A DNA stretch of 64,000 bases from a virus, in IMG/VR virus record IMGVR_UViG_3300027712_001108, positions 93,924-157,923 of that record; one strand, given 5' to 3'. A program made the translations under genes and the position numbers. Below are positions 14,615 through 54,131 of this stretch, piece after piece (position 1 is the first letter of the stretch; each line of letters starts with the position of its first letter). The notes beneath the pieces are model-generated. The model did no database searches and was not told where the DNA came from. It saw only the letters and a program-made list of their open reading frames with translations.

Positions 14615-14864
14615 GTTGTTAATCAGATCGGGCAAGTTGGTTGCACGGCTGATCGACAGTAGCTTTAGACCCAACGATGTAGTAAGTGAAAGCAGCATAG
14701 ATTTAAAAGATCTTGCTGCTGCATTGCCACAACACACACTTGCACCCACTATAGACGGGGACATGTATGTGCATTCGCCGCATAAAACAAGTCCGCAAGT
14801 GATAACCAGAGAAGAAAACGAAGCACAGGTATTGGCTGAACGAAAAAACACAGATACCCGTTGA
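14604..14864 (+). CDS. Small protein of unknown function
   Basis: 86 aa from a GTG start at 14604 that overlaps the phosphoesterase gene by 11 bases; GGAGAAATTCCTC before it is a usable ribosome binding site. No ATG start is available without running far into the upstream gene. The sequence is mixed helix and loop (IDLKDLAAALPQHTL) with no motif I recognise. Its TGA stop lies inside the TTGACA of the next promoter. Confidence 0.5.
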   Translation: MRIELLIRSGKLVARLIDSSFRPNDVVSESSIDLKDLAAALPQHTLAPTIDGDMYVHSPHKTSPQVITREENEAQVLAERKNTDTR

Positions 14865-14888
14865 CAACGGCATTATATATGTTATTGT
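14861..14888 (+). promoter_or_regulatory. Promoter, TTGACA-16-TATTGT class
   Basis: TTGACA (14861-14866), 16-nt spacer ending TGT, TATTGT (14883-14888). It drives the HAD phosphatase and cyclic-phosphate domain genes. Confidence 0.7.
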
Positions 14889-14917
14889 GCAGTTGTAGAT
14901 AGCAACAGGAGACAGAC

Positions 14918-35590: not shown

Positions 35591-37250
35591 AGAATTTGGA
35601 TCTGCAAAGATCGACCATGACATGGAAGCAACATTGCCGCCTGTTGCAATCATGCCAGAACTTAGCAACAGCAACAGCTATCTACAATATCGTTTTATGT
35701 CTGATATGGCTGCTGCAAGAGCAGTAGCAGCAGGCGAGGTTCAATTTAAGAAAATTGTACCATGGAGTCAGTATCTAACAGTAGTTGGGTATACACCAGA
35801 AGAACTTGAAACTGTGAGATTGGCATGTGAACAAAGTGGTATGAAGTTTGAAATGATCAATAACACAACAAGCCAAGAACCCAGTTGGGTTAATACTCTA
35901 AGCACTGTGATGCCGTTTCATATGAGTGAACACAAGCGTAGCAATAAAAAACTTGCAGGCTTATTTGAAAGTGACGGCAAGCAAGTACTAGTAATATACC
36001 CTGGGCATTTCCAGCCGTTACACCGTGGTCATCAAGCAGTATTTCAAAAACTACAAGAAGAATACGGTGACAATGTCTATATCGCAACCAGTGATAAAAC
36101 AAATAGTAATAATAGCCCATTTGACTACAATGACAAAACAGTTATGGCTCGTGCCGCCAATATACCACTTGATAAAGTTGTGCAGGTAAAATCCACTTAT
36201 AGCCCAGCTGAAATTACAAAATTATTCGATCCCAATAACACAGTGCTGATATTTGTAGTGGGTGTTAAGGATATGGAACTTGATCCGCGATTCAAGTTTG
36301 ATGATAAAAAAGACGGCACTAAATCATATTTGCAAAAGTTTAAAAACGAAGAAGTAGCTGAACCAATGAGCAAGCATGGTTATATCATGTCTGCACCTAC
36401 TGTTGAGTTTGAGTTGTTGGGCCAACCCGTCACCAGTGCTACACAAGTTAGAAAACTTTATGCTGCCAGCGACGATGCAAAGCGTGATAAAATACTGAAA
36501 GATCTCTATGGTAAACCCTCGTCTGAAATTAGAACCATGTTTGATCGCAAGTTGAGTCATTCGTCTACACAACTGAGCGAGTCTGTACATAGCGAAACTT
36601 TTATAGATAACATGCGCAAGTTTTTTGCAATTGCACAGCGTGACTTGGAACTGGATAGCTTGCCTAAGATAGTATGGACCAGTGACAGTACTGCCAAAGG
36701 CGAACGTCCTACCTTTGGTAAATTCCAAAACGACAATAACACAATCACTGTAAGCATTGTAAATCGCCATCCAATTGATATTATGCGCACATTGGCACAC
36801 GAACTTACACACTATAAACAACACATGACCAAAGGTTTAGATGCTAAAAGCGGCGATACAGGTAGTCCAGAAGAAGATGAAGCCAATGCCATTGCTGGAC
36901 AAATTATGCGTCACTTTGACGAAGAAAATCCAGACGCATTTGATATCAAGCCTGTTATAGCAGAACATATTGTTAGACACGGCAGTGGATATAGACTGCT
37001 TAGCAAAAAAACTGGCAAAAATCTCGGAGATTTCCCTACTAAAGCTGCGGCTGAAAAGCATGAACGTGAAGTACAATATTTCAAGCATGCATCTGAATCA
37101 GTCAATGAGGAAGTATGGGATCACCCTAATCCTGTTAAAAAGCATAAAAAGCTAAGCCCAGCTGACAAAGCTGCTGCCAAACGCAGAGCCGCAGCAGCAG
37201 GTAGAAAATATCCCAACATGGTAGATAATATCTGGGCTGCTAAACGATAA
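35568..37250 (+). CDS. Fusion: leader, paralog domain, nucleotidyltransferase, HExxH metallopeptidase
   Basis: 560 aa. Order: leader MRLLDLFEEFGS (LFE-E); paralogous domain to about residue 130; cytidylyltransferase fold with VIYPGHFQPLHRGHQAVF (HxGH) and VTSATQVRK at about 145-310; LSES linker near 340; a zinc metallopeptidase with IMRTLAHELTHYKQH and the third-ligand helix EDEANAIAGQIM at about 405-450; basic tail KLSPADKAAAKRRAAAAGRK. Joining NadM-like nucleotidyltransfer to a protease behind a capsid-type leader suggests packaged enzymes that may be cut apart at LxE sites. Substrates unknown. Confidence 0.78.
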   Translation: MRLLDLFEEFGSAKIDHDMEATLPPVAIMPELSNSNSYLQYRFMSDMAAARAVAAGEVQFKKIVPWSQYLTVVGYTPEELETVRLACEQSGMKFEMINNTTSQEPSWVNTLSTVMPFHMSEHKRSNKKLAGLFESDGKQVLVIYPGHFQPLHRGHQAVFQKLQEEYGDNVYIATSDKTNSNNSPFDYNDKTVMARAANIPLDKVVQVKSTYSPAEITKLFDPNNTVLIFVVGVKDMELDPRFKFDDKKDGTKSYLQKFKNEEVAEPMSKHGYIMSAPTVEFELLGQPVTSATQVRKLYAASDDAKRDKILKDLYGKPSSEIRTMFDRKLSHSSTQLSESVHSETFIDNMRKFFAIAQRDLELDSLPKIVWTSDSTAKGERPTFGKFQNDNNTITVSIVNRHPIDIMRTLAHELTHYKQHMTKGLDAKSGDTGSPEEDEANAIAGQIMRHFDEENPDAFDIKPVIAEHIVRHGSGYRLLSKKTGKNLGDFPTKAAAEKHEREVQYFKHASESVNEEVWDHPNPVKKHKKLSPADKAAAKRRAAAAGRKYPNMVDNIWAAKR

Positions 37251-37454: not shown

Positions 37455-40400
37455 ATGAAAATTATTAACATTATACCAAATACGCAATCTATATTTGAAG
37501 CAAAGGTTATCGGTGATTATCACCGAGGCATGTATAATGATGATGACGATGATGATGACGATAGCAGTTCATCGGGCTACAAACGTCGTATGCCACTCGG
37601 TAGTATACTGAATAAACATAAAAAATCTAGAAAAAAGAACGTTTCTTTACCCAGTAATACACCCCCAATCAGGTATGATTTGCCAGATTGGGACGCTGTG
37701 TTTGTTTTCACAGGGCATTTTAGAGATAGAATAGCAGAGCGCCATATCAATTATAATTTTATGGTAGATGAATTGTCTAACATTTTAGAAAAACACAAAG
37801 ATACTATTCAAAGTTTGCCAGATGATGAAGAATTCGTAATACGTGATAGATTCAGATTTAACAGTATAATTGTTGTACACCGTAATGATGATGGTAGTTC
37901 TACATATTATGCTGTAACTATGTTACCAGCCACCAAAGCACGTAGCACTTTTGAAAAATTCAAATATGTGTTTAACGAATCAGATGATAGACATCCAATT
38001 AAACTAGGTGATCTTGTTACTATGTCAAAAGGCATGGAAGATGCCGATTTTTGGATAGAATATCGCGGCAGTATTAATACAGTTGGTAAACCCAGTAAAG
38101 AATACGGTCCGCATAAACTTGGTATAAAAGTCACAGCAACTGATCGATTGGATCCAAAATATTTGTACTATATGTTTATGCATTTGCATAACCAAGGGCA
38201 GTTTGCAAAAATAGCCAACGGTACAACCAATCTAGTTAATATAAGAATACGCGACATTGCTAATATACCATTGGCAATGTCAGAATCTATTGCAGAAAAT
38301 GATGACGAACCGGTCAGGATAACGCTGCGAGGCTTTCCTAAAAGTCCAGACGATAGGCCGGAAGCAAGTGCTGCCAAGCGATGGATAGATCATCTGTATG
38401 CAACTCTGCCTACCAATCCGTTAAATCCAGACCAACTAGCACTGGTATACGGCGAAGGTGCAAATCAACAGATAGCACTGTTTGAGTTAGAACCAGTAAA
38501 GGGCGATCCAAAAACTGTCTATGTCAAGTGGTTCCAAGCATACCCAATGCGTCAGGGTGTAGGTACTAGAGCCATGAAAGAGTTGCAGGACATGGCAGGC
38601 AAAGCAGGTCTTAAACTGAACTTGATCAGCTGGAATCACGGTAAGGTACCAAGACGTGCGCTAGACAAGTTCTACAAAAAAGTGGGATTCAAACCCAGTT
38701 CTGGTAAACTAAGTGGTCTAACCTGGGATCCACTAAGTGAAACGGACGCTGTGACATTTGCAGGCAAAGATCCAAGAGAATTTACATCACCCAATGGTGG
38801 CAAAGCAGCAATGGTCATAGTTACTGCACAGGGATCGCGCTATCTTATAACAGATGATGGTATGGTGCTGCGCCATAAGTCTGCACATGCCAACACAGGC
38901 GGCGATGATCAAGGCCTTAAAAATTGGTCACAGCACATAGAATTTTATGATCCCAGTGAAAAAGTAGGCGGTACTACATTCCCGTTAGCAGTGTCTGCGT
39001 CTGTGAGTAAAAATCTACCAGTTGCATTAAGCAAAACACCCGATGGACTTCGTGCGCTGGCAATTTTAGACAATGGCAAGTGGCGTGTGGCTAAAATCAG
39101 TGATGTATTCAAACATGTTGCAAAAGATGATGTGCCGATTGCTGGCAAGTACAGCACAAGTCCCAAACTGCATTGGCATACCATGGATTACGATATCAAC
39201 AGCAAAGGTATGCTGTCTAGAGTACACCCTGGCAGTCCAGTGTCACACGGTGCTGTAATCAAGCATGCGGTAAACGAAAACGATGACGACTATGGTGTCG
39301 ATGACACACCCGACATAAAAGGTGCTAAAAAATGCATACAAGATGTCAAACGTGATTTTGATTCGTTGGGCGAATTGCCTGTTAATGGTTTACTAAGTGA
39401 TTTGCAATATCGTTACAATTTAGACAATGCAACTATCGGCAAGTTGATAGAACCTATTAAATCAGACATCGTTGTCTATATAAACACCATGTTAAATCAA
39501 GGCGGTCATCCTGTATACGGCGCAGTACGACGTATATATAAACTATTCCAATACGATATTGCGTGGCCGGAACTGTATAGTATACTGAATATGCATAGGC
39601 GGCATATTATAAAATACATGTTAGACAAAATTAAAGTCAATGACATTGGTGTAGTTCAAGAACAACTTCGACATTTAAAAGAAATGGGTATAGATTGGCC
39701 GGAACTAGTTACTATACGTAACAGCGTAGTACCCAACAACCTTATAGCAGAAGTAGGACCTGCCATTGACAATGTATACGGTCTTGGTGCAGTTGGCATA
39801 AGTGGTAATATCAACTATATGGGTCTTAGAGTATATGTAAAACCCAGTGTGTTTTTGAAACTTGCAGCCCGTCATCCTGATATGCAAACGGATTACATTC
39901 AGCAACACATGTCCGGCGGTAAAGCCATAGGTGCACCGTTTCTTGATATAAATATTCCCAGTGAATGGATAGATAAATCTTCTAGACATGATCAAGTGGC
40001 AGAAGGCGATTTGACCGAACCTGCCATGGTTATTGGGCATGAAGGTCGTCATCGCATGGCTGCTATCTTAAAAGACTATGGCGATGATCCCATTGAAACA
40101 CATTTGGTGTTTCGTGGACTGCGCCGCCGCCATATCACTGACAACATGATTGAACGACTGAACCAAGATATCGTCAATGAAAACGGTAGATTGTATCAAG
40201 GCTCGTGGTTTAATTTAACTGACGTAGTTACAGAAACTGATGATGACGATATTGATTTTGATACTAATTTTGTAGAACAGGACTTTTTAAAAGATCTACG
40301 TAACTATGGTATACTTGTTGCAATAACTGATATTTCAAATAAAGCCGAACGCGATGCCAGATTTTATCGCGATACTGCAATATATCATGACACTGTGATA

Positions 40401-40703
40401 GACCACAAATCATTAATAATCAGGGAACTACTAAAACGTATGAGTGCAGCAACAAGTCATACTGAGTTTCTTGTCATTGACGACTCTATTGCGTATCTAA
40501 CTAAAAAGCTAAAATTAAATTGGCCAGAGTTAAACATAATAAGACAGAGCTGCAAAGCTCATGTAGCAGCATTACCGGACGATCATCCAGGATACGACGA
40601 GTTAGATGAAAAATGGAGCAAAAAATACAAAAACAGTATAAACTGTTCCAATCCCAAGGGATTCAGTCAACGTGCGCATTGTGCTGGTAAGAAAAAAAGA
40701 TAA
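37455..40703 (+). CDS. Mosaic leader protein: GNAT-like, ParB-like and WPEL modules
   Basis: 1082 aa. Leader MKIINIIPNTQSIFEAK (IFE-A), then an acidic run of Asp. Modules in order: HFRDRIAERHI domain; a segment resembling restriction-specificity subunits (DADFWIEYRGSINTVGKPS, then NGTTNLVNIRIRDIANIPL) at about 190-280; a GNAT-like acetyltransferase (AYPMRQGVGTRAMKEL and FYKKVGF) near 355-415; a beta domain (VTFAGKDPREF); two WPEL repeats near 700-755; a domain with VIGHEGRHRMAAIL, typical of phage ParB-like proteins; a third WPEL; tail NPKGFSQRAHCAGKKKR. LxE sites (SESIAEN, VAEGDL) separate modules. Each activity is inferred from short motifs. Confidence 0.72.
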   Translation: MKIINIIPNTQSIFEAKVIGDYHRGMYNDDDDDDDDSSSSGYKRRMPLGSILNKHKKSRKKNVSLPSNTPPIRYDLPDWDAVFVFTGHFRDRIAERHINYNFMVDELSNILEKHKDTIQSLPDDEEFVIRDRFRFNSIIVVHRNDDGSSTYYAVTMLPATKARSTFEKFKYVFNESDDRHPIKLGDLVTMSKGMEDADFWIEYRGSINTVGKPSKEYGPHKLGIKVTATDRLDPKYLYYMFMHLHNQGQFAKIANGTTNLVNIRIRDIANIPLAMSESIAENDDEPVRITLRGFPKSPDDRPEASAAKRWIDHLYATLPTNPLNPDQLALVYGEGANQQIALFELEPVKGDPKTVYVKWFQAYPMRQGVGTRAMKELQDMAGKAGLKLNLISWNHGKVPRRALDKFYKKVGFKPSSGKLSGLTWDPLSETDAVTFAGKDPREFTSPNGGKAAMVIVTAQGSRYLITDDGMVLRHKSAHANTGGDDQGLKNWSQHIEFYDPSEKVGGTTFPLAVSASVSKNLPVALSKTPDGLRALAILDNGKWRVAKISDVFKHVAKDDVPIAGKYSTSPKLHWHTMDYDINSKGMLSRVHPGSPVSHGAVIKHAVNENDDDYGVDDTPDIKGAKKCIQDVKRDFDSLGELPVNGLLSDLQYRYNLDNATIGKLIEPIKSDIVVYINTMLNQGGHPVYGAVRRIYKLFQYDIAWPELYSILNMHRRHIIKYMLDKIKVNDIGVVQEQLRHLKEMGIDWPELVTIRNSVVPNNLIAEVGPAIDNVYGLGAVGISGNINYMGLRVYVKPSVFLKLAARHPDMQTDYIQQHMSGGKAIGAPFLDINIPSEWIDKSSRHDQVAEGDLTEPAMVIGHEGRHRMAAILKDYGDDPIETHLVFRGLRRRHITDNMIERLNQDIVNENGRLYQGSWFNLTDVVTETDDDDIDFDTNFVEQDFLKDLRNYGILVAITDISNKAERDARFYRDTAIYHDTVIDHKSLIIRELLKRMSAATSHTEFLVIDDSIAYLTKKLKLNWPELNIIRQSCKAHVAALPDDHPGYDELDEKWSKKYKNSINCSNPKGFSQRAHCAGKKKR

Positions 40704-41362: not shown

Positions 41363-42094
41363 ATGAAAATTAATGAACTAGTAATAGAAGCTGTAAAGCA
41401 ACGTTTAGATCCAAAATGTTGGAAGGGCAAACACAAAGAAGGCACCAAAATCAAAGGCGGTGTTAGAGTTAATAACTGTGTGCCCAACGAAAGTATAGAA
41501 GAAAGCAAAGTTAAACCCAGTGCAAAATACTTAAAACTAGCTGATGCACTGGAAGATTATGCCAATAAGCATATTCCCAAGTCGCAGCCGGGCTTTGGCG
41601 ATTTCATGTACCATGCTGAATTAATACGCAAGGGCCATCAAGATGTGCATAAACAAGATTTAAACACTGTGCAACAGAAGTATCGCAAAACTATGGGCGA
41701 TATGATAAAACAACATCTTGATGAGACTCGTATCAGCGAAGGTCTTACTTACAATGATCCTGTATCAAAGTGGATAGCAGTGTTCAAAGCCAGCACACAT
41801 CCAAAGTTTAAAGGAAAGACAGCTGAGCAGCGTGAGAAGATGGCACGTATGGCACAGTACAAAGCTGTGCAAAACAAAAAACCGTTATCAGAAAGCAAGA
41901 AGCGTAAGGCTAAGACACTTATAGACGGTATGATTAAATCCCTAATCAAGCAAGGCCGCACACATGATGAAGCTGTAGCTGATCTCAAACGACAAGTTGA
42001 TTCACGTTTTTATGAGCATATAGATGCGTTAGCTGCTATGATAACAGAGCACGAATCTAATGCGGATTCTATTAACGATCAACGAGGTAGATAA
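41363..42094 (+). CDS. Leader protein with basic Cys motif
   Basis: 243 aa. Leader MKINELVIEAVKQ (VIE-A) is followed directly by DPKCWKGKHKEGTKIKGG and VNNC, a basic two-Cys motif common in phage head-associated proteins. Later segments include SKWIAVFKASTHPKFKGKT, another recurring phage pattern, and a helical C-terminus. Two further LxES/LDE-T sites (PLSESKK, LDETRISEG) could be cut. Function unknown. It follows the preceding gene by one base and overlaps the next by 35. Confidence 0.68.
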   Translation: MKINELVIEAVKQRLDPKCWKGKHKEGTKIKGGVRVNNCVPNESIEESKVKPSAKYLKLADALEDYANKHIPKSQPGFGDFMYHAELIRKGHQDVHKQDLNTVQQKYRKTMGDMIKQHLDETRISEGLTYNDPVSKWIAVFKASTHPKFKGKTAEQREKMARMAQYKAVQNKKPLSESKKRKAKTLIDGMIKSLIKQGRTHDEAVADLKRQVDSRFYEHIDALAAMITEHESNADSINDQRGR

Positions 42095-43481
42095 CAACAT
42101 GTCTGGTCATGTGTATAAACCAAAACAACCTGTAACAGAAACATTTGATCAACCATACAAATCCAAATGGGAAAACAGTGAGTATGGCGATGTTGATCTG
42201 TTGACTAAGTTACCGGATGGCACAAATTTAAGTATCATGTTCAACCATGAAGGCGACGACGAATGGCAAGTTGAATTCTATAGAGACAACAGCCAAGCAG
42301 TAACCGGCCAAGGCGATGCACAGCGAATATTTGCCACTGTGATAAATGCTGTCCAGAAATTCGTTAAAAAACACAAACCACAGTTAGTGAGATTCTCTGC
42401 AAGCACAGAGTTAGATCCTGGACAGAATAGCGAAAGTAGAGCTAAATTATACGGTAGAATAATTCAGCGTTATGCTAGTGCAATGGGATATGAAGCGTAT
42501 CAAGAGGATCACGGCGATCAAGTTACATATGAATTGACACGATTAGAAAATGTAACGGAAAACAGTGCAGATGGCCTAATAAGTGGCAAAGAAATGCTAG
42601 ACATCTTTAAACGCATGCACCATGAACACGGCTTCAACAAGCAGATGGAACGTTGGATTGCCAAACAAACGTGGAGTCTTGATACAATTGAGCCAGAACA
42701 ATTGCAAGACATGTACAATGACGACGAAGACACTGATCCGTTTGATAGAACCGTTTGGTTAGACGATGCAGTGGTTACCAAATATGAGCGTATATTGAGT
42801 GCAGGACAATTGGTTAATCCCATCATAATGGGTCTGGATCGCACTGTGATAGATGGTAACCATCGTGCGCAGGCTGCAAAAAACTTGCATGTAAGCATAC
42901 CAGGTTATGTACCAGTTAAGAATGATGTAACAGAAAACTTTACAGATGGTAAAGGTCCTGGTCGCCCCGGAGACAGTCGACGCCACGGTATTCCCAAGCA
43001 CGCTACATTAGCGCAGCTAGACAAGATCTCACATCAAGGTGGCCGCAAAGGTCAGCTAGCACACTGGCAAGCCAACATGCGCAGAGGTCGTGCAAAGACC
43101 AATGAAGCCATTGCTCCGCATGGAGACAGTTGGAACGAATTGAATTTGATGAAGATTGGCCAAAAGCCAGCGGCACTGGTAGGCCCACATGAATTTGAAA
43201 AACTCTACAAGCCAATTATGCGCAAGTATAACTGGATATGGACACATGTCACGGTGCCCAACCCTGATTCGGGACCTCTTGTACTTGGATTTGAACGTTA
43301 TATAATTGGCCAACCTGGCGAACAAGCACGTATTGCTCGTATGCATCATTTGCTTGTACAAATGAACAAAAATCTTAAAAATGGTATCAGACCTGATGCA
43401 GACTATCATATAGAAATGGGTAGACTGCTGGGATACAGCGATGCTGATATTTCAGAGTTTCTCAAAAAAATAAATCTATAA
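42060..43481 (+). CDS. ParB-like domain protein with basic phage motif
   Basis: 473 aa from 42060 (MRILLTINEVDNN, a leader with INE-V) or 460 aa from ATG 42099 (MSGHVYKPKQ, with GAGG upstream); I favour neither strongly. A middle domain has LSAGQLVNPIIMGLDRTVID followed by GNHRAQAAKNL, the ParB/sulfiredoxin-like core. Then PGRPGDSRRHGIPKHATLAQ and RKGQLAHWQANMRRGR, a motif common in T4-like virion-associated proteins. The C-terminal 120 residues are helical. VTEN and TNEA sites may be protease targets. Function unknown. Confidence 0.65.
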   Translation: MRILLTINEVDNNMSGHVYKPKQPVTETFDQPYKSKWENSEYGDVDLLTKLPDGTNLSIMFNHEGDDEWQVEFYRDNSQAVTGQGDAQRIFATVINAVQKFVKKHKPQLVRFSASTELDPGQNSESRAKLYGRIIQRYASAMGYEAYQEDHGDQVTYELTRLENVTENSADGLISGKEMLDIFKRMHHEHGFNKQMERWIAKQTWSLDTIEPEQLQDMYNDDEDTDPFDRTVWLDDAVVTKYERILSAGQLVNPIIMGLDRTVIDGNHRAQAAKNLHVSIPGYVPVKNDVTENFTDGKGPGRPGDSRRHGIPKHATLAQLDKISHQGGRKGQLAHWQANMRRGRAKTNEAIAPHGDSWNELNLMKIGQKPAALVGPHEFEKLYKPIMRKYNWIWTHVTVPNPDSGPLVLGFERYIIGQPGEQARIARMHHLLVQMNKNLKNGIRPDADYHIEMGRLLGYSDADISEFLKKINL

Positions 43482-44459: not shown

Positions 44460-45626
44460 ATGAGATTACTAGATATTTTTGAGTCGTTTTATTTGTTAGA
44501 AGACCTAGAAGGGCAAAAAGCTCAGCGTGGTCAGTTTCTCAAAGACAAGTATGGCAAAGATTTTAAAGGCTTGCCTGGCTATGGGCCGGACGACTTAGAC
44601 AAGCTGATTGAAAAGATCGGCGAAGTTGATCCCACTCGTAACGGTGCTTACATGCAGTGGATTGGACGATTGGCACTGACAAAGCCGGGTGAGAATCGCA
44701 CAGAAGATTTGGACCGTGTGGGACAGGACTTGCAGAACTTCGAACAGTTCAAAGCACGTATTGCCAACAAAGATATCAACGCTTACAAAAGCTTTAACCA
44801 GCTCTACGATATAACTGAGCCGTTTACTAGACCACAAGAAAAAACAAAAGACGACAAGGCCAAAGACAAAGAAGCGGCAGAAATTGCCAAGCTGAAAAAT
44901 GAAATCATCACAGTCTACAACGGCCCAGAAGGCTGGATACGTATTCCCAAAACACAAGCTGCTGCTACATACCTTGGCAAGGGTACACGTTGGTGTACTG
45001 CTGCTACTGGCAACAACATGTTCAACCATTATAACCGAGATGACAACCTATTTGTTGTACACGATAAAGCACAATCAAAAGTGTATAGAGAATTTATGGC
45101 GAACCCTGCCAATGCCGGTAAGCCAAAGCCTCACAACGGCATGTATCAGTTGCACATTGAAAGTGGTCAGTTTGCATCAGACGACGACCGCAATCAGGGT
45201 ACTAGCTCAGTGCCGCCGTGGGCAAGAACTCCTATACTTGAATATTACAAAGCCAACAATCCAAATCTATCATGGAAACAGATAATGACACTGAGTACAT
45301 TCGGCGATGAAAATCTCGCAGTTGGTACAAAGCATGAAGGTGTTATAAATCTGTTCAGCTTGTTTGATGCAATTGAACAACAAGATTATAAGAAAATACT
45401 GTACTGTGCAGCCAGCTTGCCTAATTTCAATATAGAATCTACACCAGACTATGCTGAAGAAATGGACAAATACAAAGCAAACTATATAAAAGACATGCTG
45501 ACCAATCTTAATAAAGGTCCAGACGGCTACGCAGATGTAAATGCCATGCTGTCGCAACTTGAAAGTTTTGGAATGCCATGGCCTGAACTAAAACCCATTC
45601 GCGCTAAATTAAACGCTGTAATTTAA
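44460..45626 (+). CDS. Leader protein with 'WCTA' domain and a WPEL module
   Basis: 388 aa, AAGGTAACGTATATACT before the ATG. Leader MRLLDIFESFYLLED (IFE-S). A helical region is followed by a domain with WIRIPKTQAAATYLGKGTRW and CTAATG, then FVVHDK and MYQLHIESGQFASDDDR; this is a recurring phage domain in which the WCTA strand is diagnostic, function unknown. The last 60 residues are a WPEL repeat (YIKDMLTNLNKG ... FGMPWPELKPIRAKL). It is the first gene of the main WPEL operon. Confidence 0.72.
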   Translation: MRLLDIFESFYLLEDLEGQKAQRGQFLKDKYGKDFKGLPGYGPDDLDKLIEKIGEVDPTRNGAYMQWIGRLALTKPGENRTEDLDRVGQDLQNFEQFKARIANKDINAYKSFNQLYDITEPFTRPQEKTKDDKAKDKEAAEIAKLKNEIITVYNGPEGWIRIPKTQAAATYLGKGTRWCTAATGNNMFNHYNRDDNLFVVHDKAQSKVYREFMANPANAGKPKPHNGMYQLHIESGQFASDDDRNQGTSSVPPWARTPILEYYKANNPNLSWKQIMTLSTFGDENLAVGTKHEGVINLFSLFDAIEQQDYKKILYCAASLPNFNIESTPDYAEEMDKYKANYIKDMLTNLNKGPDGYADVNAMLSQLESFGMPWPELKPIRAKLNAVI

Positions 45627-45720: not shown

Positions 45721-46194
45721 ATGCGACACTTTATATCATTAATAGAAAACATCAATGCTGAAAATTATACAGTACCGCAAGATGTAATAGATGCAATTGG
45801 AGAAACTCTAGATAATGGTTCTGCGTGGAGTTTGGAAAATGTGTACAGTTTAATGGATGAGCTTGACGTACCTGAAGATGCTACAACAGAAGTGCTTAAA
45901 CGTCTGTTGCCGAATATAAAAAATTGGCTAGACCTGATGATAAATGAATATACGTTGGTCGGTGCAATGGACAGCATAATGTATCTAATTGATGAAGAAG
46001 GCCTGGAAGAATTCAAACCTATTTTAATACAAACCATAAAACAAAATAGAAGCAAAGTAATTAAAGGGTTGCTGCGAAACCTGCAAGAAAGCGTTATGGG
46101 TATTGAACACGTTATTGATTATCTGATGTCGCTGGGATTTGAATGGACTGAATTACAAACGATATACGATAGTGTTCATACAGGTAGAAATTAA
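45721..46194 (+). CDS. Small leader protein with one WPEL module
   Basis: 157 aa. Leader MRHFISLIENINAENY (LIE-N). Helical throughout. The C-terminal 55 residues (QNRSKVIKGLLRNLQES ... SLGFEWTELQTIYDSV) are a WPEL repeat with T for P. An upstream region (PNIKNWLDLMINEYTLVGAM) looks like a degenerate copy. Function unknown; it is followed by the tandem-repeat genes after 3 bases. Confidence 0.7.
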   Translation: MRHFISLIENINAENYTVPQDVIDAIGETLDNGSAWSLENVYSLMDELDVPEDATTEVLKRLLPNIKNWLDLMINEYTLVGAMDSIMYLIDEEGLEEFKPILIQTIKQNRSKVIKGLLRNLQESVMGIEHVIDYLMSLGFEWTELQTIYDSVHTGRN

Positions 46195-46197
46195 TCA

Positions 46198-48036
46198 ATG
46201 TCCACTACAAATATAGATACCAGCATAGACAAACTGCGAGACAGATTAGAAGCTATTAAAACAGCTGGCGAATACTATAAACTTACCCCAATATTATCTC
46301 AAATTTCTAGAGTAATAGACAGTAGGCGTGACAACACCGAAACCAATTTATATCTGTTTGAAAAACTTGATCAACTGCTGTTGCATTACAAACCAATAAT
46401 TCTAGAGTGGTTAAACGATCAATTTGAGCATGCTATATATGGCGGACTTGAAGGTCTAGAAATTTTAAAAAATGACATTGGACTTGATTGGCCAGAGTTA
46501 GGCAACTGGATTAATACGCATAAGCATACATTCGTTAAACAGCTTGTTTTAGGTATGAAGCAAAATGATTTCCATTCAGTTATATCTGACATTGAAGAAT
46601 TGCGTAGATTAAATGTGACTTGGCCAGAATTGGATATTTTTGAAAAACCTGCTCGCGAAGAACAACAACGCATAGACTTTCGTTATGTAGGCGATGACAA
46701 CGACGCCGATGATTATATAGATGATCACGATTTGCATGAGGATGATAGCGTGTCTCCTAAAATTAAAAAAACAGTACAATATTTGTTGAATACTGGCCAT
46801 GTGGATGTGTTTGTACGGCAGTTGGAAGATCAAGGACTAGACGATTCTAGAATCGTAGAAGTATTGTCACCGCATGCAAAACAAATAGTAGATAAAATAA
46901 CTGAAAACAAAAGAATGCCGCCTTATGCAGTATACGAACTGATATTGCTTTTACAACTTGGTGCAAAATGGCCTGTGTTATTAGATGCAATCTCAAATAA
47001 CAAGCATGCAGTTATCAAATATCTGTTAACCGACTTTAAAGAGAATTATGCAGATGACATCATGCTAGACAGTTTGAATAAAGATCTTGAACGCTTGAAA
47101 TCATTTGGTATAAACTGGAAAGAACTGGAGATACTTGAAACCAGCGTTGTCGATCAATTAAAAGATCGCGGGCTATACGATGATCGTACTCCATTGGCAG
47201 AAGCACAGCCTGTAATACCACCTAAAATAGTAAAACAGTTTGAACGTGAATACAGCAATATTCACCTGCGCGGTGTTACTGCTATATGGGAAACAGTGGT
47301 ACACTTGAAAGACATAGGTGCAACTGATCAACAAATTGCATCGCTGCTATCAGAACGTCGCGAGCAAGTTGCACAGGTAATTAGAAACAGCTTGCACAAT
47401 GAATCTCCTAAAAGTTTCAATCCCATTAACGAGGCCATGTACGCCATATACGAATTGCTAAGTGTAGGTATTAAATGGCCTTTGCTGTTACAGCTACTAG
47501 ACCGCTATAAAGACAAAGTCACAGCCTGGGCAATTGCAGGCGCTACTGATAGTCACTTTGGTTCAATTATTGCAGACAGATTAGTTGCCTTTGAAAAACT
47601 GGGATTTGACACTGCTGATATTAGACAGGAATTAAAAGCCAATGTATCGCCTGATTTATTAAAATCTCTATATAGGCAAGGGTTCGGTTGGCACGTACAA
47701 AATAAAATACAAACACTTGCTAAATTAAATCTCCTACCAATTGAATTCAATGACAGAGACATAGATGATATTTTATCTGTATTCATGGACTATGTTGCCA
47801 ATTACAGAATGTCTAAAGATGCATATAATGCATTGGTCGAGTTAATACCGCACGACATTGCTAAAATAAAACAGACGTTTGAGAAAAACAAAGCAACTAT
47901 AGTAAAATCCCTGCTTAAAAGCATAAAATCGCAATATTCACAGTCTATAGTAGACACATTGCATATACTACACAAGTTGAATATTAAATGGCCAGAAATG
48001 TCTGTTATTACAACTAGTCTGAAAGCAGGCAGATAA
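46198..48036 (+). CDS. Tandem WPEL-repeat protein (about 6 units)
   Basis: 612 aa, almost entirely helical repeats. Units end at GLDWPELGNWI, NVTWPELDIFEK, GAKWPVLLDAIS, GINWKELEILETS, GIKWPLLLQLL and NIKWPEMSVITTS; another may lack the motif (LGFDTADIRQEL). After the second and fourth units come acidic linkers, the latter with TPLAEAQPVIPP, an LAE-A site. No leader of the MRLxDLFE type is seen, so this may be cut from, or made with, leader-bearing partners. The stop overlaps the next ATG (TAATG). Confidence 0.72.
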   Translation: MSTTNIDTSIDKLRDRLEAIKTAGEYYKLTPILSQISRVIDSRRDNTETNLYLFEKLDQLLLHYKPIILEWLNDQFEHAIYGGLEGLEILKNDIGLDWPELGNWINTHKHTFVKQLVLGMKQNDFHSVISDIEELRRLNVTWPELDIFEKPAREEQQRIDFRYVGDDNDADDYIDDHDLHEDDSVSPKIKKTVQYLLNTGHVDVFVRQLEDQGLDDSRIVEVLSPHAKQIVDKITENKRMPPYAVYELILLLQLGAKWPVLLDAISNNKHAVIKYLLTDFKENYADDIMLDSLNKDLERLKSFGINWKELEILETSVVDQLKDRGLYDDRTPLAEAQPVIPPKIVKQFEREYSNIHLRGVTAIWETVVHLKDIGATDQQIASLLSERREQVAQVIRNSLHNESPKSFNPINEAMYAIYELLSVGIKWPLLLQLLDRYKDKVTAWAIAGATDSHFGSIIADRLVAFEKLGFDTADIRQELKANVSPDLLKSLYRQGFGWHVQNKIQTLAKLNLLPIEFNDRDIDDILSVFMDYVANYRMSKDAYNALVELIPHDIAKIKQTFEKNKATIVKSLLKSIKSQYSQSIVDTLHILHKLNIKWPEMSVITTSLKAGR

Positions 48037-49670
48037 TGCAGTATTATAATGAAGAAATATACAGATCACTGATAGAGGCTGTACGTCAGCGCCAGTACAA
48101 AGAAGTACCGTTTAAATTACGTAGACTTGGTGAAAATACAGAACCTTTTACACCTAGAAGCGGTATTGATCTGCTTAATAAAAACAAAACTGGCTGCATT
48201 CGTGGTATATTGTACATATATAAAAATCAAGATGATTATGGGTTAACCAACAATGATTTCCAAAATGCAGTAAAAGGTGCACGTAAAATAGGATTGGCCT
48301 GGCCTGAATTGGATATACTTGAAAACAGTATTGGCACTGATACAGTCACCGAAGCTGCAAAACAACTCACCGGTGACGACATAGCCAAAGATATCGAAGA
48401 CATATTCAGCGACACCGATTCAGGTTTTAGTTCTTCTAAACGTATGATATTGCAACGTCTGATATTATCCTATTCCGCATTGTTAGATGCAGTTAAAATA
48501 AAAGACATATCCAGCATAACAGCAGCGTTGACTAGATTAAAGCAACGTATTCTTCGAGACATGCTGTCTAATATGCAGCATGGCGATACCAAGGTGGATA
48601 TGCCCATTTATATTAAAACACTACAGCAGTTTGGTATCAATTGGCCGGAGTTATCTATTATAAACGACAGCACAGATAAAAAACTCAAAGAAACGCTGCG
48701 CATACATCCTCGGGATCCCAGAGATCGTATGCTGGATAGATTAGAAGACATATTCACTGATCCCGGCACAGATGTATTTGACCGAATCACTGAATTGGAT
48801 ATAGCCAGATCCATTTTACAACGTATCAGTCAAGACGATGTTGATGCAATATTGGCAAACTATAAAACCCACATTATAAAAGATACATTGAAACATTTGA
48901 TGCATGGTGCAGTAGATGTTGATGTACCTATCTTTTTAAGAACACTGCAAGGACTGGGTGCAAACTGGCGTGAATTAGACATAATCGAAAAAAGTGTTGG
49001 CGGCAATAGCCCGCAGTTGGATGAAGCACCCCGTACATCCGATGAAATAATTCGTGACGAATTTGACTATAATATATTTTATGGCATTGCAGCATTGCGC
49101 ATTTATAGCCGTCAACTTGCAGAATTTCCCGAATATGAACAGCTAGTGAATACACATAAAGCCAAGCTGATACGCTTGCTGTTGGAGTTGTGCAAAGACA
49201 ACGAGTTCGGTGTGGCCAAATTCAGAGCAGAGGATTTGCAAACTGCGGGTGTAGATTGGCCAGAGTTGGACATCATTATAGACAGCGCCACACATGAACT
49301 TGACAAGTTCTTTGGCATTGACTCAGCAGACCAGCTAGCAGAAGGAATTAGTCATGCTGCCAGATATAACATGAGTGGTGCGCTATCTAGCATAGAAGAC
49401 GACGAACCACGCGAAATGGTATTGTTTTTAAGCAATGCTGCATATGAAGATTCGTTGCCAACTATTGCTAAAAAACTGGCTCCACATAAACAGTTTATTG
49501 TACGAGCATTGCTGGACTTTTTAAGAGATGAAGAAGATGCAGCAGAGTCAGTTGATACTGTTAGGGATTGCCTAACAGTATTGGATAAAATAGGATTCTC
49601 CAGCCCAGAATTGTCTATACTACGAAATAGTTTAAACGTACCAAGCAAAGGTGATCAAAATGGCCAATGA
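48036..49670 (+). CDS. Tandem WPEL-repeat protein (5 units)
   Basis: 544 aa. N-terminus YNEEIYRSLIEAVRQR has an LIE-A site. Five regular units end GLAWPELDILENS, GINWPELSIINDS, GANWRELDIIEKS, GVDWPELDIIIDS and GFSSPELSILRNS. Each begins with a 'hxxxKxxIIRxxL' helix, e.g. LANYKTHIIKDTLKHL. Linkers after the units contain TVTEAAKQL, PQLDEAPRT and QLAEGISHA, candidate protease sites placed regularly between units. This is the clearest view of the repeat and linker architecture. It overlaps the next gene by 11 bases. Confidence 0.75.
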   Translation: MQYYNEEIYRSLIEAVRQRQYKEVPFKLRRLGENTEPFTPRSGIDLLNKNKTGCIRGILYIYKNQDDYGLTNNDFQNAVKGARKIGLAWPELDILENSIGTDTVTEAAKQLTGDDIAKDIEDIFSDTDSGFSSSKRMILQRLILSYSALLDAVKIKDISSITAALTRLKQRILRDMLSNMQHGDTKVDMPIYIKTLQQFGINWPELSIINDSTDKKLKETLRIHPRDPRDRMLDRLEDIFTDPGTDVFDRITELDIARSILQRISQDDVDAILANYKTHIIKDTLKHLMHGAVDVDVPIFLRTLQGLGANWRELDIIEKSVGGNSPQLDEAPRTSDEIIRDEFDYNIFYGIAALRIYSRQLAEFPEYEQLVNTHKAKLIRLLLELCKDNEFGVAKFRAEDLQTAGVDWPELDIIIDSATHELDKFFGIDSADQLAEGISHAARYNMSGALSSIEDDEPREMVLFLSNAAYEDSLPTIAKKLAPHKQFIVRALLDFLRDEEDAAESVDTVRDCLTVLDKIGFSSPELSILRNSLNVPSKGDQNGQ

Positions 49671-50844
49671 TGCAGATCAATTAATTGCCAGCCGAGTTGC
49701 AGGCATAATGATGAATGAACCACTGGCACTAAGAGCATTGATTCACCGACTAGAAACACCACCCTATGAATGGCCAGCAGACGATATATTAGCAGTGGTA
49801 CAAGATCACAAGACTGCTATTTTAAAATACATAGATAGAAAATTCAGGGTAGGTAATATATCATTGCCCATCAATGACATTAAAAAACTAATACACATTG
49901 ATGCGCCATGGCCAGAATTAAAAGACATGGTCATCAAATACAAATTTTCTATTGTAAAAAAACTGTTAGAGATGCTGCGAGCCGGCGATCATAGAACAGC
50001 TACAGATCCAATTAACACACTAACGTCGTTAAACATGCGCTGGCCGGAACTTGTTGTTATGCAAAAGAGTATAGATGAAAGAAATAAACAGCTACGCGAA
50101 TCATACACATTAGATGACCACGAAATGGCACAATACAAAGCTGATTTATTGTCTGACATCCACGGCAAGCATTATATTGCAGTATTAGATGCTGTACCCG
50201 ATATTACACAGTATACAAATTTAGGCAATGTAGATCGTATAACTCGCACATTGGAAGAACATAAACACGGTATAATGCGTGCATTGTTAGAAATGATAAA
50301 ATTGGGCAGCAGTAACGAATTGTCATTGTATGGCCCTACTCTTTTAAATGGATTTGCGAAACTGGGAATTGACTGGCCTGACCTTGACGTAATACGAACA
50401 TCAATTGCCAAGACTCCGCTGAAAGAGTTGAGTGAAAATCGCGACCATGCCAAATGGATAGCAGATGAATATAAAGACAGCATAATAATAGGTGTTTTGC
50501 GAAACGACATGGATTTGCTATTGCAATCACTGGCAGAATTCGGATGGACAGATTCTCAAGATAGAGGCGATGTCACAGATTTAACTACGCTTATGACGAA
50601 TCACAAGCAGAGAATAATGAAAGGCATACGCGAGTACATGCTGGAGTTGGACTCGGACGGCATATGCTACATTATGCCTCAAATATTAGATGGATTAGAT
50701 AATGCTGGTATAAAGTGGCCGGATTTACAAGTACTTGGCCAGAGCGTTGACCTTATACAACAAGAAAAAGACGAAGACAATGTAGAGTTGAATGAACGCC
50801 GAAAGTCTGTAAATAACATAACGTACAGGAATCCCAGGGCATGA
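49660..50844 (+). CDS. Tandem WPEL-repeat protein (4 units)
   Basis: 394 aa from ATG 49660, preceded by AAAGGTGATCAAA; an in-frame start at 49651 adds three residues. Units end DAPWPELKDMVI, NMRWPELVVMQKS, GIDWPDLDVIRTS and GIKWPDLQVLGQS. Linkers: QLRESYTLD, PLKELSENRD and VELNERRKS. The first two units run together without a linker, like a two-unit block. The stop overlaps the next gene (ATGA). Confidence 0.73.
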   Translation: MANDADQLIASRVAGIMMNEPLALRALIHRLETPPYEWPADDILAVVQDHKTAILKYIDRKFRVGNISLPINDIKKLIHIDAPWPELKDMVIKYKFSIVKKLLEMLRAGDHRTATDPINTLTSLNMRWPELVVMQKSIDERNKQLRESYTLDDHEMAQYKADLLSDIHGKHYIAVLDAVPDITQYTNLGNVDRITRTLEEHKHGIMRALLEMIKLGSSNELSLYGPTLLNGFAKLGIDWPDLDVIRTSIAKTPLKELSENRDHAKWIADEYKDSIIIGVLRNDMDLLLQSLAEFGWTDSQDRGDVTDLTTLMTNHKQRIMKGIREYMLELDSDGICYIMPQILDGLDNAGIKWPDLQVLGQSVDLIQQEKDEDNVELNERRKSVNNITYRNPRA

Positions 50845-52490
50845 TACCACGTGAAATCAGATACACTCTGACAATGTTCTACGAGGACATTGAGCAGGGT
50901 AGTTATATCGACGCTGTGGAGTGTCTAAATGAATTGTACCACTATAAGGTATATGAAACTGCTGAACGCAATAGAATCAATGCAGCATTGGTAGCCCATA
51001 AAAATGGTATCGTGAAACGACTGCTGCGCTATATGCGACGTTATCCATCAGATGAAGTTGCACACTTTATACCCAATACCATTGATGCATTGCGAGCATT
51101 TGATATTGATTGGCCTGATTTAAACGTTATTGCACGGTCTGTACCTAAAACGAAACCAGTGGCAGAAGCACTGGCATCGCCGCTGGGTAATATTGTATTT
51201 GGCATGCAAAATGCACTGCGACAGGGCAACGACCGTGTGGTAGCACACCGCGTAATTGATCTATGGCGTGGTAGTACATTGGAAAAACAGCGTGCAAGCG
51301 ACATGCTAGCAGATGTTGATAATTTGGTATTGAGTTATATAGAACGTCAGCTTGGATCTGATGATATGTTTGCAGTACAAGATGGATTAAATCTTGTACA
51401 AGTATTACCGCCGTCAGAAGACTGGGCAGATATAACAACGCTTCTCAACAAATACAAAAAAAACATAATAAAGTATTTGTTAAAATGCATGCAACATGGA
51501 GAATTTGATATCGTAGAATATCGCGTACCCATGTTACATGAATGGGGTATACACTGGCCCGACTTGGAAGTTTTAAAAATCAGTGCAGATGAAATGGAAC
51601 AGAACGACAGCAATGATTCCCAGCTGGATGAAGCAGATAGCCGCGCTGACTTTTCAACTGTGCATAGAAACAGATCAGACGCAGACGGCGGTCATAGATT
51701 TCTATTAAATGCAGATGAGTATGTGGAACATATCAGAGCTCTATTGCAAAATGGATATAAAAATAATGAAGCGGTGTCAGAGTTGTCCACTGTTGGCCGT
51801 AGACGCCGGGGCGCCATCAAAGACTGGCCTGAATTAGCTGCGGTAATCAACGAATATAAAAAACCATTATTAGATATTATATTGTTGCATTTTAATAAAG
51901 AACATTTCAGTCATCGACTTTTGGATTTTGCAGGTGCATTATACGCTATCGGGGTCCATTGGCCTGAAATTAAACCCATGATAGAAAAAAACAAATATAA
52001 GATCATGCAGATATTGCGTGGACTAATCGAAGACGAATCTGACATAGAGTTTATAGAATCTCAAATACATGCATTAAAAAGTTACGGTATTAAATGGCCT
52101 GATTTAGACATCATCGCCAAAAGTATTGCGCCCGATGATTTAGCAGAGGACGAAGATCAAGCAGCCGCGGTGCCAGACAATTCTATACGTTCAATGATAA
52201 TGGATATGCTAGAACGCGATGGGCTGGGTATTGCATTATATCATATAGAAGAATGGAATCTTGATGTTGAAAAGTTTCCAGAATTAGTAGACTTTCTTAA
52301 CAAGCGCAAACATCAATATATGAAAATCTTGATAAATGATCTAAAAGATGGACGCGACTGGAAGTATGGCGCAGTTGAACAATATCTAAGACGTCTAGAA
52401 AAGTCAAAAATAAATTGGCCCGAATTATCAATCATACGCGACAGCTTAAATACAGTACAACAGCAGGAAGACGATACCAATGACAATTGA
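50841..52490 (+). CDS. Tandem WPEL-repeat protein (about 6 units)
   Basis: 549 aa. Units end DIDWPDLNVIARS, GIHWPDLEVLKIS, IKDWPELAAVINE, GVHWPEIKPMIEK, GIKWPDLDIIAKS and KINWPELSIIRDS. Linkers include KPVAEALASPL, SQLDEADSRAD and DDLAEDEDQAA. The basic patch GRRRRGAIKDW lies in the third unit. The start ATG shares bases with the previous stop (ATGA). As with its neighbours no enzyme motif is visible, so a binding or scaffolding role is more likely than catalysis. Confidence 0.73.
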   Translation: MIPREIRYTLTMFYEDIEQGSYIDAVECLNELYHYKVYETAERNRINAALVAHKNGIVKRLLRYMRRYPSDEVAHFIPNTIDALRAFDIDWPDLNVIARSVPKTKPVAEALASPLGNIVFGMQNALRQGNDRVVAHRVIDLWRGSTLEKQRASDMLADVDNLVLSYIERQLGSDDMFAVQDGLNLVQVLPPSEDWADITTLLNKYKKNIIKYLLKCMQHGEFDIVEYRVPMLHEWGIHWPDLEVLKISADEMEQNDSNDSQLDEADSRADFSTVHRNRSDADGGHRFLLNADEYVEHIRALLQNGYKNNEAVSELSTVGRRRRGAIKDWPELAAVINEYKKPLLDIILLHFNKEHFSHRLLDFAGALYAIGVHWPEIKPMIEKNKYKIMQILRGLIEDESDIEFIESQIHALKSYGIKWPDLDIIAKSIAPDDLAEDEDQAAAVPDNSIRSMIMDMLERDGLGIALYHIEEWNLDVEKFPELVDFLNKRKHQYMKILINDLKDGRDWKYGAVEQYLRRLEKSKINWPELSIIRDSLNTVQQQEDDTNDN

Positions 52491-53721
52491 CCATTTGGAT
52501 TTATTAGAAGACCTTGGCAATCTTGCACAGCTCAATGCAGGTCCGCTGATAAATGTGCTTAAACAATATCCCGGACCTAGTGGTATTGGTCACGTCGAGA
52601 AGGCATTTCACCGAGAATGGGATATGGCAATTGGCAGTAACAGTCCTATACTTGATATCGGCAATCTCAAAGATGGTATAAAGACGCTTCGCAAAGCATT
52701 TAAAACACACGAAGCTGCTGCGGCATTTGTAGTATACATTGGCGGCAAAGCTGCTATGTTTGGCACAACAGACAGTTATACACTTGCTGGCGGTTCACGC
52801 GAAGGCAGATTAGCATATGATTTAAGACCCTGGGAAGCTGCTGTAAAAGCTGCACATGAACGAGAACATGGAACCAAGCCGTCTTGGTCAAGACCCAGTA
52901 CGCCCGCTCTCAGTACTGCTAAAGATGTAGAGTCGCGCAATTACAGTCATCCTGAAGACAAGTGGAATAACCCAGTAATGGTTACCAGACACTATGCAGG
53001 CGACATGGTCAGTACCGGTACGCTGTCTGGATTGTTTACTATTATGCAGAATATTGCTAAAGACACCGGAGAGCCTCTCACAGGCAAGCTGGTACTGCGC
53101 GATATGAAAGCCAGAGAAACTAGACGTGCAAGGCAGTTAACTAGACAAGAAATTAATGCTGGGGTGAAAGATCTCAAAACTAGATTGGCGATTTATAAGA
53201 ACAGCAAAAAGCCCAGTGTCGATACTGTTGAAGATTTCATTGCAATGAGTCTTAATAAGCCAGGTAGTATTGTACAGTTTGCAGGACGCCCATATCGACT
53301 AACTGCTAGCACCTACGACAAAATTGATCCGTTGAGTTTGTTAAAAGGCAAATCATTTACCACCAGGTATGCAACCAACGAACCTGGTGGGTATAATAGT
53401 ATGGAGTTGACATACAGGTTTGATGCAGATACTAACCAACTGTTACCTATATCAGCAACGTGGAGCGATAACACTGATCCTAATAAACCACGTAGTCAAA
53501 CAGCAGTGCTGGATCCCAAGGGTTATCTACAAAACGCATTGGGTATTAAAAAGCTAGAAAAGCCATATGTTATACCTAAACTATTGGAAAAAATAAAAAA
53601 CCAGCAATTCAAAGATGCATTACTGTATGCAACTGCATTGGAAAAATTAGGAATAGAATGGCCTGAAATCTCGCTTATCAAAGACAGTGCGCAACACGAA
53701 GTTGATTTAAAAAATAAATGA
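52480..53721 (+). CDS. Phage-domain protein with C-terminal WPEL module
   Basis: 413 aa. N-terminus MTIDHLDLLEDLGNL has LLE-D. The first third has FKTHEAAAAFVVYIGGKAAM followed by FGTTDSYTLAGGSREG and YDLRPW, a domain that recurs in T4-like phage genomes without known function. A lysine/arginine-rich middle (MKARETRRARQLTRQEIN) precedes a beta region, and the end is a WPEL unit (KLGIEWPEISLIKDSA). It overlaps both neighbours, so is translated as part of the WPEL operon. Confidence 0.7.
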   Translation: MTIDHLDLLEDLGNLAQLNAGPLINVLKQYPGPSGIGHVEKAFHREWDMAIGSNSPILDIGNLKDGIKTLRKAFKTHEAAAAFVVYIGGKAAMFGTTDSYTLAGGSREGRLAYDLRPWEAAVKAAHEREHGTKPSWSRPSTPALSTAKDVESRNYSHPEDKWNNPVMVTRHYAGDMVSTGTLSGLFTIMQNIAKDTGEPLTGKLVLRDMKARETRRARQLTRQEINAGVKDLKTRLAIYKNSKKPSVDTVEDFIAMSLNKPGSIVQFAGRPYRLTASTYDKIDPLSLLKGKSFTTRYATNEPGGYNSMELTYRFDADTNQLLPISATWSDNTDPNKPRSQTAVLDPKGYLQNALGIKKLEKPYVIPKLLEKIKNQQFKDALLYATALEKLGIEWPEISLIKDSAQHEVDLKNK

Positions 53722-54131
53722 AATCCAGTGAATTCATAAACAAATCTATCAGGGATATTACAACAGACGTTGTGGCTATGTCGGTGAGCATTGGTAACTC
53801 TGTAACGGAATCTGATATAAGTCCTGAACTGTTATCACGTATGAGCAAGGCAGTTAAAAGCAAATTCTCAAAAGGCGATTATGCAGACGCACTTCGCTAC
53901 ATGGGCGATTACGGATTAACATATGCAGCAGCACCAAGTGAATTACAAGACCTTATCAACAGTAGACGAATGCAGATCATCAAAGATCTACTTGATATTG
54001 CAAGACATAATCCAGATGCATGGCGTGTATATAGATTGATGTCCTATGTAAAACTAGTAGAACTAGGTTGGCCTGAAATTGACACACTGTTCAACAGTGC
54101 CAAAGCTGCAAAAGAAGACGAGCGCATTTAA
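53718..54131 (+). CDS. Small leader-like protein with WPEL module
   Basis: 137 aa, ATGA overlap with the previous gene. N-terminus MKSSEFINKSIRDI resembles MRSSQFITDA of the gene at 34323 and T4 MKTYQEFIAE. A single repeat occupies the C-terminal half: INSRRMQIIKDLLDIARHNP ... VELGWPEIDTLFNSA. It is the last gene of the WPEL run. Confidence 0.7.
   Translation: MKSSEFINKSIRDITTDVVAMSVSIGNSVTESDISPELLSRMSKAVKSKFSKGDYADALRYMGDYGLTYAAAPSELQDLINSRRMQIIKDLLDIARHNPDAWRVYRLMSYVKLVELGWPEIDTLFNSAKAAKEDERI

Follow-up and report, generated by a model that had tools for sequence, protein, structure and literature searches.

The prohead protease family cuts after Glu, and in phage T4 the internal proteins IPI-III and Alt are cut by gp21 after a Glu with a hydrophobic residue at P3 (PMC5694885); Alt is cut at ITE-6 and at LTE-619, the latter near the C-terminus (PMC5694885). 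Within the capsid-targeting sequence (CTS) of T4 IPIII, residues 4 and 7 act in targeting and residues 8 and 10 in processing; when position 10 is Asp, processing is blocked while targeting persists (PMC9026906). The gp21-related protease of phage SPN3US cuts at AxE, with 14 sites in nine proteins, 13 of which remove N-terminal propeptides (PMC10052503). For the polyvalent proteins (Iyer et al. 2017), processing into separate units was proposed to be necessary, mainly by built-in metallopeptidases or by C-terminal assemblin-like domains (PMC5512222). Here, we analysed the final 64 kb (64,000 nucleotides; the window) of the 157,923-bp uncultivated virus record IMGVR_UViG_3300027712_001108, which is probably a fragment, and in particular four open reading frames (ORFs) at 46198-52490, named A612, B544, C397 and D549. 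Quite probably, the products of these ORFs and of the gene cluster around them are internal head proteins of a T4-related jumbo phage that are synthesized as polyproteins, from which the prohead protease then releases the separate domains. The record's DNA polymerase is nearest to those of jumbo myoviruses of 350-490 kb (Sinorhizobium phage Phosso and Agrobacterium phage Atu_ph07).

The likeness to the T4 internal proteins lies in the Glu with hydrophobic P3, in free-standing modules that start with an M-K-..-E-F-I-x-E-like peptide, and in the presence of a gp21-type protease (Peptidase_S77, here S77) in relatives. However, T4 loses short terminal propeptides, whereas the sites described here lie between domains, so that one chain would give several folded products; nor did the modules show homology to T4 internal proteins (no PHROG or Pfam match). 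With the inner-body/ejection proteins of phiKZ and SPN3US (gp175/gp245), the shared feature is extensive proteolysis of head-packaged proteins after x-x-E, but there P3 is Ala (S/A/G in phiKZ) rather than Leu, Ile or Val and there is no chain of repeated domains. Like the polyvalent proteins (PMC5512222), the cluster has multi-domain chains, shuffled modules, a weak GNAT, a Pol-beta nucleotidyltransferase (in the relative G001, see below) and an HExxH peptidase; unlike them, its junctions carry sites of the type cut by a trans-acting prohead protease and many modules are non-enzymatic helical domains. None of the polyvalent signature domains (ART, GNAT, Pol-beta nucleotidyltransferase, metallopeptidase, ParB/DdrB) was found in A612-D549. 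Among the open-access papers searched, PMC5512222 was the sole one naming both a prohead protease and polyvalent proteins, and a search on prohead protease and polyprotein returned nothing on multi-site processing of such chains into domains.

All four ORFs encode chains of all-helical domains built from a repeat of about 44-45 amino acids (consensus LADLLNKHKHKIIKDLLKNLKHGDFDVDVEDVIEALRKLGIDWPELDIIRNSVKA; core ..GIxWPELxIIxxS), the WPEL unit. A unit profile built from the window found some 30 units, spread over 12 of the record's genes: the window ORFs starting at 34320, 37455, 44460, 45721, 46198, 48036, 49651, 50841, 52480 and 53718, and two distant genes. Repeats either abut directly (44-45 amino acids apart) or end in ..WPELxIIxxS and are followed by a linker. 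A model of the two-repeat domain, from 20 aligned domains, has six helices at a predicted local distance difference test (pLDDT) score of 90, with 59 for the first ten, linker, residues; by this model, a single WPEL domain is predicted to fold independently. The model of full-length C397, from two sequences, is of low confidence (pLDDT 65), and its low-confidence stretches cover both linkers. No isolated phage matched the WPEL unit, and the WPEL ORFs matched no Pfam family above cut-off (weak matches only) and no informative PHROG. Foldseek with the WPEL domain gave no significant match in the PDB or in BFVD, a set of predicted viral structures (best E 2.6 and 2.7). Tandem helical repeats of ~44 amino acids recall TPR/HEAT/ARM solenoids, but these results do not support that identity, all Pfam matches being below cut-off.

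Relatives with the WPEL family were found by searching viral contigs with a profile from the closer subset of the unit alignment. They comprise G001 (a 518,643-bp contig), G002 (a 199,865-bp contig) and smaller contigs. G001 has the corresponding gene cluster at 199-221 kb, with orthologs of 38-56% overall identity. The four ORFs, all found with the unit hidden Markov model, and the P1 Glu codons of their candidate sites are as follows (residue numbers in brackets; the bar marks the putative cut).

46198..48036, plus strand: ORF A612, a polyprotein-like WPEL solenoid with predicted fragments 1-181, 182-335 and 336-612
46738..46740, plus strand: A612 P1 Glu, DLHE|DDSV (181); the equivalent in G001 is the N-terminus MQIQSLME|AKNIPP of the gene at 210831-212198
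47200..47202, plus strand: A612 P1 Glu, PLAE|AQPV (335); G001 ortholog SLME|AQPV
48036..49670, plus strand: ORF B544, five domains of ~12 kDa with four sites between them
48351..48353, plus strand: B544 P1 Glu, TVTE|AAKQ (106); matching G001 linker YIDE|AM
48690..48692, plus strand: B544 P1 Glu, KLKE|TLRI (219)
49023..49025, plus strand: B544 P1 Glu, QLDE|APRT (330)
49341..49343, plus strand: B544 P1 Glu, QLAE|GISH (436); G001 ELDE|GEAG
49651..50844, plus strand: ORF C397, three domains, aligned with G001 214046-215227
50098..50100, plus strand: C397 P1 Glu, QLRE|SYTL (150); G001 NVNE|AL
50425..50436, plus strand: C397 P1 Glu, PLKE|LSE (259) and the adjoining LSE|N (262); G001 TLDE|SY
50794..50796, plus strand: C397 site in the C-terminal tail, ELNE|RRKS (382); G001 DLYE|SS; its position recalls the cut close to the C-terminus of T4 Alt (PMC5694885)
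50841..52490, plus strand: ORF D549, four predicted fragments
51165..51167, plus strand: D549 P1 Glu, PVAE|ALAS (109); G001 PVRE|ALSS
51630..51632, plus strand: D549 P1 Glu, QLDE|ADSR (264); G001 has an extra module here
52146..52148, plus strand: D549 P1 Glu, DLAE|DEDQ (436); G001 GLNE|SKSN

The original prediction, made from the window's letters alone, had listed eight motifs: PLAEAQ, TVTEAA, QLDEAP, QLAEGI, QLRESY, VAEALA, SQLDEAD and DLAEDE. All eight were found at domain borders (A612 335; B544 106, 330 and 436; C397 150; D549 109, 264 and 436), together with at least three further border sites (A612 DLHE181|DD, B544 KLKE219|TL and C397 PLKE259|L / LSE262|N). Its claim that sites stand at unit borders, not inside units, holds for the linkers at domain borders; directly abutting repeats have neither linker nor site. 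The single repeats that it proposed as products are thereby ruled out, and the sites instead divide domains, which are either two to four ~44-residue repeats or enzymatic modules.

To measure enrichment, we took as the test zone the first 28 amino acids after each core that a linker follows, and compared counts with 2000 within-linker shuffles. In the four ORFs, [LIV]xE was present in 12/12 linkers compared with 4.0±1.6 after shuffling, and 0/2000 shuffles were as high. One of the twelve, A612 LVE548|L, was rejected as a false border, being inside a domain body and lost in the relative, and the true count is therefore 11/11. In an independent set of linkers from relatives, fetched later and unused for discovery, the motif was present in 28/29 (12.0±2.5 expected; 0/2000). 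Overall, [LIV]xE[AGSDNT] occurred in 35 of 43 linkers compared with 7.5±2.4. In linkers, sites with a small P1' had roughly eight times the density that they had in cores (29.1 and 3.7 per 1000 amino acids), so that the excess over domain bodies, and over the expectation for acidic linkers, on which the original prediction had staked itself was borne out. The control motif [LIV]xxE was not enriched (8/43 compared with 16.2), nor across the linkers were [LIV]xD, [LIV]xK or [FYMW]xE; acidic composition thus does not account for the signal, and on these controls and the shuffles a compositional artefact was rejected.

The sites are also conserved. For all 11 true linkers, the counterpart linker in G001 has [LIV]xE. 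Linkers vary between relatives in length and sequence (zone identity 0.11-0.68), yet the motif is retained, and Glu 150, 259 and 382 of C397 are invariant columns within diverged linkers. That the sites are real, under selection and placed at module joints we regard as close to certain.

The strongest evidence comes from module shuffling, where the junction is usually [LIV]xE. In the neighbouring ORF X1082 (37455..40703), ..NNLIAE|VGPAIDNVYGLGAVGISGN.. matches the beginning of a stand-alone gene in G001, MKLDDIFE|AGPKIDNIHGMGAVGISGN, the junction reading LIAE|VGPAIDN internally and MKLDDIFE|AGPKIDN at the N-terminus. From residue 182, at the DLHE|D junction, A612 corresponds to a separate 455-residue G001 gene that starts MQIQSLME|AKN. 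The N-terminal DLLE|DLGNLAQL of ORF 52480 heads a module that is internal in G001 (EQLDE|DLGNLNQL), and in the alignment of this ORF E10 is invariant in four phages. The G001 ortholog of D549 has an extra module of ~180 amino acids inserted between RIDE|G and ELKE|D, whilst the B544 domain between TVTE|A and KLKE|T is missing from G001. Modules are thus free, internal or reordered among relatives, with at least two distinct domains per chain shuffled between genes. Among non-solenoid homology borders, 27/51 had [LIVMF]xE on both sides compared with 8.4±2.6 for random positions (maximum 18 in 2000 draws). The same test with the solenoid repeats included gave 48/114 compared with 24.5±4.4 and was noisy; it was redone without them because the repeats align out of register.

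The pattern extends to other contigs and to cultured phages. The ParB-like HEGRHR module of X1082 was found at 47 loci. Among its nearer relatives the module is immediately preceded by a Glu with a hydrophobic P3, both where it is N-terminal (MKSSEFITE|V, MKIKEILE|V) and where it is internal (LDE|V, LKE|A, INE|V, LDE|Y, LNE|N); the preceding site is missing from a distant group and from L095, a single nearer relative. Another module is internal in Vibrio phages nt-1 and ValKK3 (SSVNLTE|AFDKPS) and N-terminal in Vibrio phage 207E48.1 (MIVE|VLDAP); the nt-1 protein is AGN30040.1 (VPFG_00035), with a predicted cut at SSVNLTE|AFDKPSK. The gp332 protein of Synechococcus phage B23 is a free-standing metallopeptidase module that starts MNYKQFLRE|S; in ORF 35568 of the window this module follows an internal QLSE|S.

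N-terminal and internal copies of the site differ in what they keep. The N-terminal copies follow M[KR]xx[ED][FIL][IL]xE|[SAD..], a set chosen by M[KR] and the motif itself, of which only the remaining columns are informative. The internal copies keep only P3 (Leu above Val and Ile), P1 (Glu) and P1' (Ser, Ala, Asn, Asp or Gly), with little preference upstream. Set against the residues of the T4 IPIII CTS, P3, P1 and P1' are kept and the upstream targeting residues lost, and the internal linkers therefore appear to have kept the requirements of a gp21-type protease but not those of targeting.

No Peptidase_S77, Peptidase_S78 or gp23 capsid protein was found on the 158-kb record, so that the head genes probably sit elsewhere. 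The gp21-type protease that the original prediction expected elsewhere in the genome was thus found only in a relative: G001 encodes S77 and a gp23 capsid protein. S77 was also present in 4/4 cultured module-carrying phages examined (nt-1, ValKK3, B23 and 207E48.1), and phage PA5oct carries a T4-like gp20, an S77 protease and a gp23-like capsid protein. Where gp23 would be expected to be cut on maturation, a position placed by analogy with gp23 rather than mapped, the capsid proteins read ILFE|SAT (G001) and FLVE|NAS (PA5oct).

On this evidence, we propose the following. A CTS-like N-terminal peptide would bring the chain that bears it, or neighbouring chains, into the core of the prohead. There, a gp21-type S77 protease would cut the linkers after Glu at [L/I/V]-x-E|[S/A/N/D/G]. 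Cutting would free compact helical domains of 12-20 kDa and enzymatic modules, which would remain in the head with the DNA and would probably be injected; the linker sites would double as joints for module shuffling between genes. Cutting of the sites by an S77 prohead protease we hold to be about three-quarters certain in this reading, and we incline, with less assurance, to the products being packaged and injected. For the WPEL domains, a role as head filler or a scaffold-like role in the core is also possible. The original prediction of polyproteins cut during head maturation is well supported at the level of sequence: the sites are enriched, they persist in linkers that have diverged, and domains are fused or split at them.

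Several points weigh against prohead processing. Modular anatomy, non-random conserved sites, fusion and fission at those sites, and the protease and capsid-protein sites of relatives were computed here; for this phage we infer cutting, packaging and injection alike. The phage's own protease was unseen on the 158-kb record, as expected for a fragment, and S77 was seen in 2/31 other contigs with the HEGRHR module, most of which are small fragments. A612, C397 and D549 have no obvious N-terminal CTS, and SLIE14|A of B544 was discounted as one because it is not conserved, G001 having ALKDVV there. Genome-wide, N-terminal enrichment was modest (P3 falls in residues 1-11 for 12% of genes, compared with 2-9% elsewhere) and was dropped as proof of a CTS. 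The reversed motif Ex[LIV] was mildly enriched (24/43 compared with 16.8), and Val at P3 and odd P1' residues (Val, Leu, Lys, Arg) occur. Finally, linkers drawn from related phages are only partly independent as samples, and with orthologous linkers interdependent the exact probabilities behind counts such as 0/2000 are not literal.

If once-separate genes with an N-terminal CTS had been joined by read-through, the internal motifs could be fossils with no present function, and several internal sites do fall, in alignments, exactly on the N-terminal sites of genes that stand alone. At 38-56% overall identity, however, motifs without a function should have decayed, whereas every true linker keeps [LIV]xE as its surroundings diverge, and the loss of upstream targeting residues with retention of P3, P1 and P1' is as expected under selection for cleavage; we consider fossils unlikely. 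The same retention bears on a docking role, in which uncut linker motifs would recruit domains to the prohead by binding scaffold or capsid. The T4 CTS does have a targeting function that survives the Asp at position 10 (PMC9026906), but the internal sites lack the conserved upstream residues of the N-terminal copies, and what they keep, a hydrophobic P3 and Glu at P1 with a small P1' preferred, are processing determinants. Docking without cutting is decidedly unlikely.

Alternatively, another peptidase could make the cuts, for example the HELTH metallopeptidase module of ORF 35568-37250, which lies in the cluster; self-processing by metallopeptidases has been proposed for polyvalent proteins (PMC5512222). 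The motif nevertheless fits the Glu-cutting prohead protease family (PMC5694885) and agrees with LFE|S and LVE|N, the sites in the capsid proteins, and the peptidase module is itself flanked by LxE, as a passenger would be, so we give this explanation little credence. That acidic flexible linkers or helix starts would generate the sites incidentally we regard as highly improbable. The linkers are rich in Asp and Glu (20% together) and the reversed motif is mildly enriched, but no within-linker shuffle was as high as the real count, [LIV]xxE, [LIV]xD and [FYMW]xE are not enriched, and the site lies at varying distances from the end of the core (P3 offset 1-25).

The phenomenon extends beyond the WPEL proteins to the cluster at ~28.5-53.7 kb of the window and to the similar modules of cultured phages. 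The neighbouring features are:

35568..37250, plus strand: ORF 35568, multi-module, with N-terminal MRLLDLFE|E, GLFE|S followed by a cytidylyltransferase-like module, and QLSE|S followed by the HELTH metallopeptidase
37455..40703, plus strand: ORF X1082, with an N-terminal module, a weak GNAT, a WPEL solenoid, the HEGRHR ParB-like module and WPEL
39750..39752, plus strand: X1082 P1 Glu, LIAE|VGPAIDN, at the upstream edge of the HEGRHR module
42060..43481, plus strand: multi-module ORF with PVTE|TFDQP; in nt-1/ValKK3 this module lies internally behind NLTE|AFDKP, and in 207E48.1 it is N-terminal, behind MIVE|V
44460..45626, plus strand: ORF 44460, with CTS-like MRLLDIFE|S and one C-terminal WPEL unit
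45721..46194, plus strand: ORF 45721, which begins MRHFISLIE|N and has a single WPEL unit
52480..53721, plus strand: ORF 52480, with N-terminal DLLE|DLGNLAQL
53718..54131, plus strand: final WPEL ORF of the cluster, a single domain

CTS-like N-terminal peptides ending in (L/I)xE are present in ORFs 35126, 35568, 37455, 41363, 44460, 45721 and 52480, and X1082 has the border sites SIFE|AK, SIAE|N, AVNE|N and LIAE|V. The GNAT in X1082 is weak and below cut-off (E 0.0034), ORF 35568 has a metallo-protease PHROG match, and the Pol-beta nucleotidyltransferase is above cut-off in the corresponding G001 protein. The N-terminal half of ORF 44460 is homologous to EST35_0205 of PA5oct, annotated as a virion structural protein by electrospray ionization tandem mass spectrometry (ESI-MS/MS). 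The HELTH metallopeptidase of ORF 35568, in its LxE-bounded chain, may act as a second processing enzyme or travel as an effector passenger.

Other observations concern recurrent motifs. A Cys/His motif, KYKxSINCSNPKGFSQRAHCA, is C-terminal in X1082 (window 40560-40700) and internal in the D549 ortholog (G001 215224-217533), where it sits between VEE|S and VRE|A. The motif QRLDPKCWKG..GTKxKxGVRVNNCV stands shortly after [LIVF]xE at window 41390-41480 (ORF 41363) and at G001 193833-198959. Repeats of ~24 amino acids, NPSExxQLAAVxxxPxxIxxI, occur with a WPEL unit at window 34320-35033 and G000 13789-15036 (minus strand) and are related to PHROG 17056. ORF 34320 itself starts MMRSSQFITD|A, which is CTS-like with Asp replacing Glu at P1; Asp at that position in T4 IPIII permits targeting and blocks processing (PMC9026906). 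In two different phages, a short N-terminal piece of gp23 (..LLPIIRRVLPTLIAHEIIGVQP..) is fused to small proteins (G001 265816-265929, minus strand, L065; G002 31287-31415, minus strand, L068), its partners being a tandem family that ends in FxLxW. Outside the window, G000 31000-51100 has minus-strand radical-SAM-type genes and a sigma-70-type factor (49656-51119), notable as phage cargo.

For large T4-related phages in general, we lean slightly towards the prohead protease being a general polyprotein processor, with [LIV]xE linkers serving both as cleavage sites and as recombination joints, and with one targeting peptide bringing in many effector domains that are cut apart for injection. If true, this would give phages a new means of packaging a large number of small proteins and delivering them together, and would solve both the packaging of long multi-domain effectors and their passage through the tail tube as separate units. 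The rule of cutting after [LIV]xE in linkers would predict the mature products of many uncharacterized jumbo and T4-like phage proteins, and would single out the orphan proteins that virions probably contain and inject. The protease site may also act as an evolutionary joint for the shuffling of modules.

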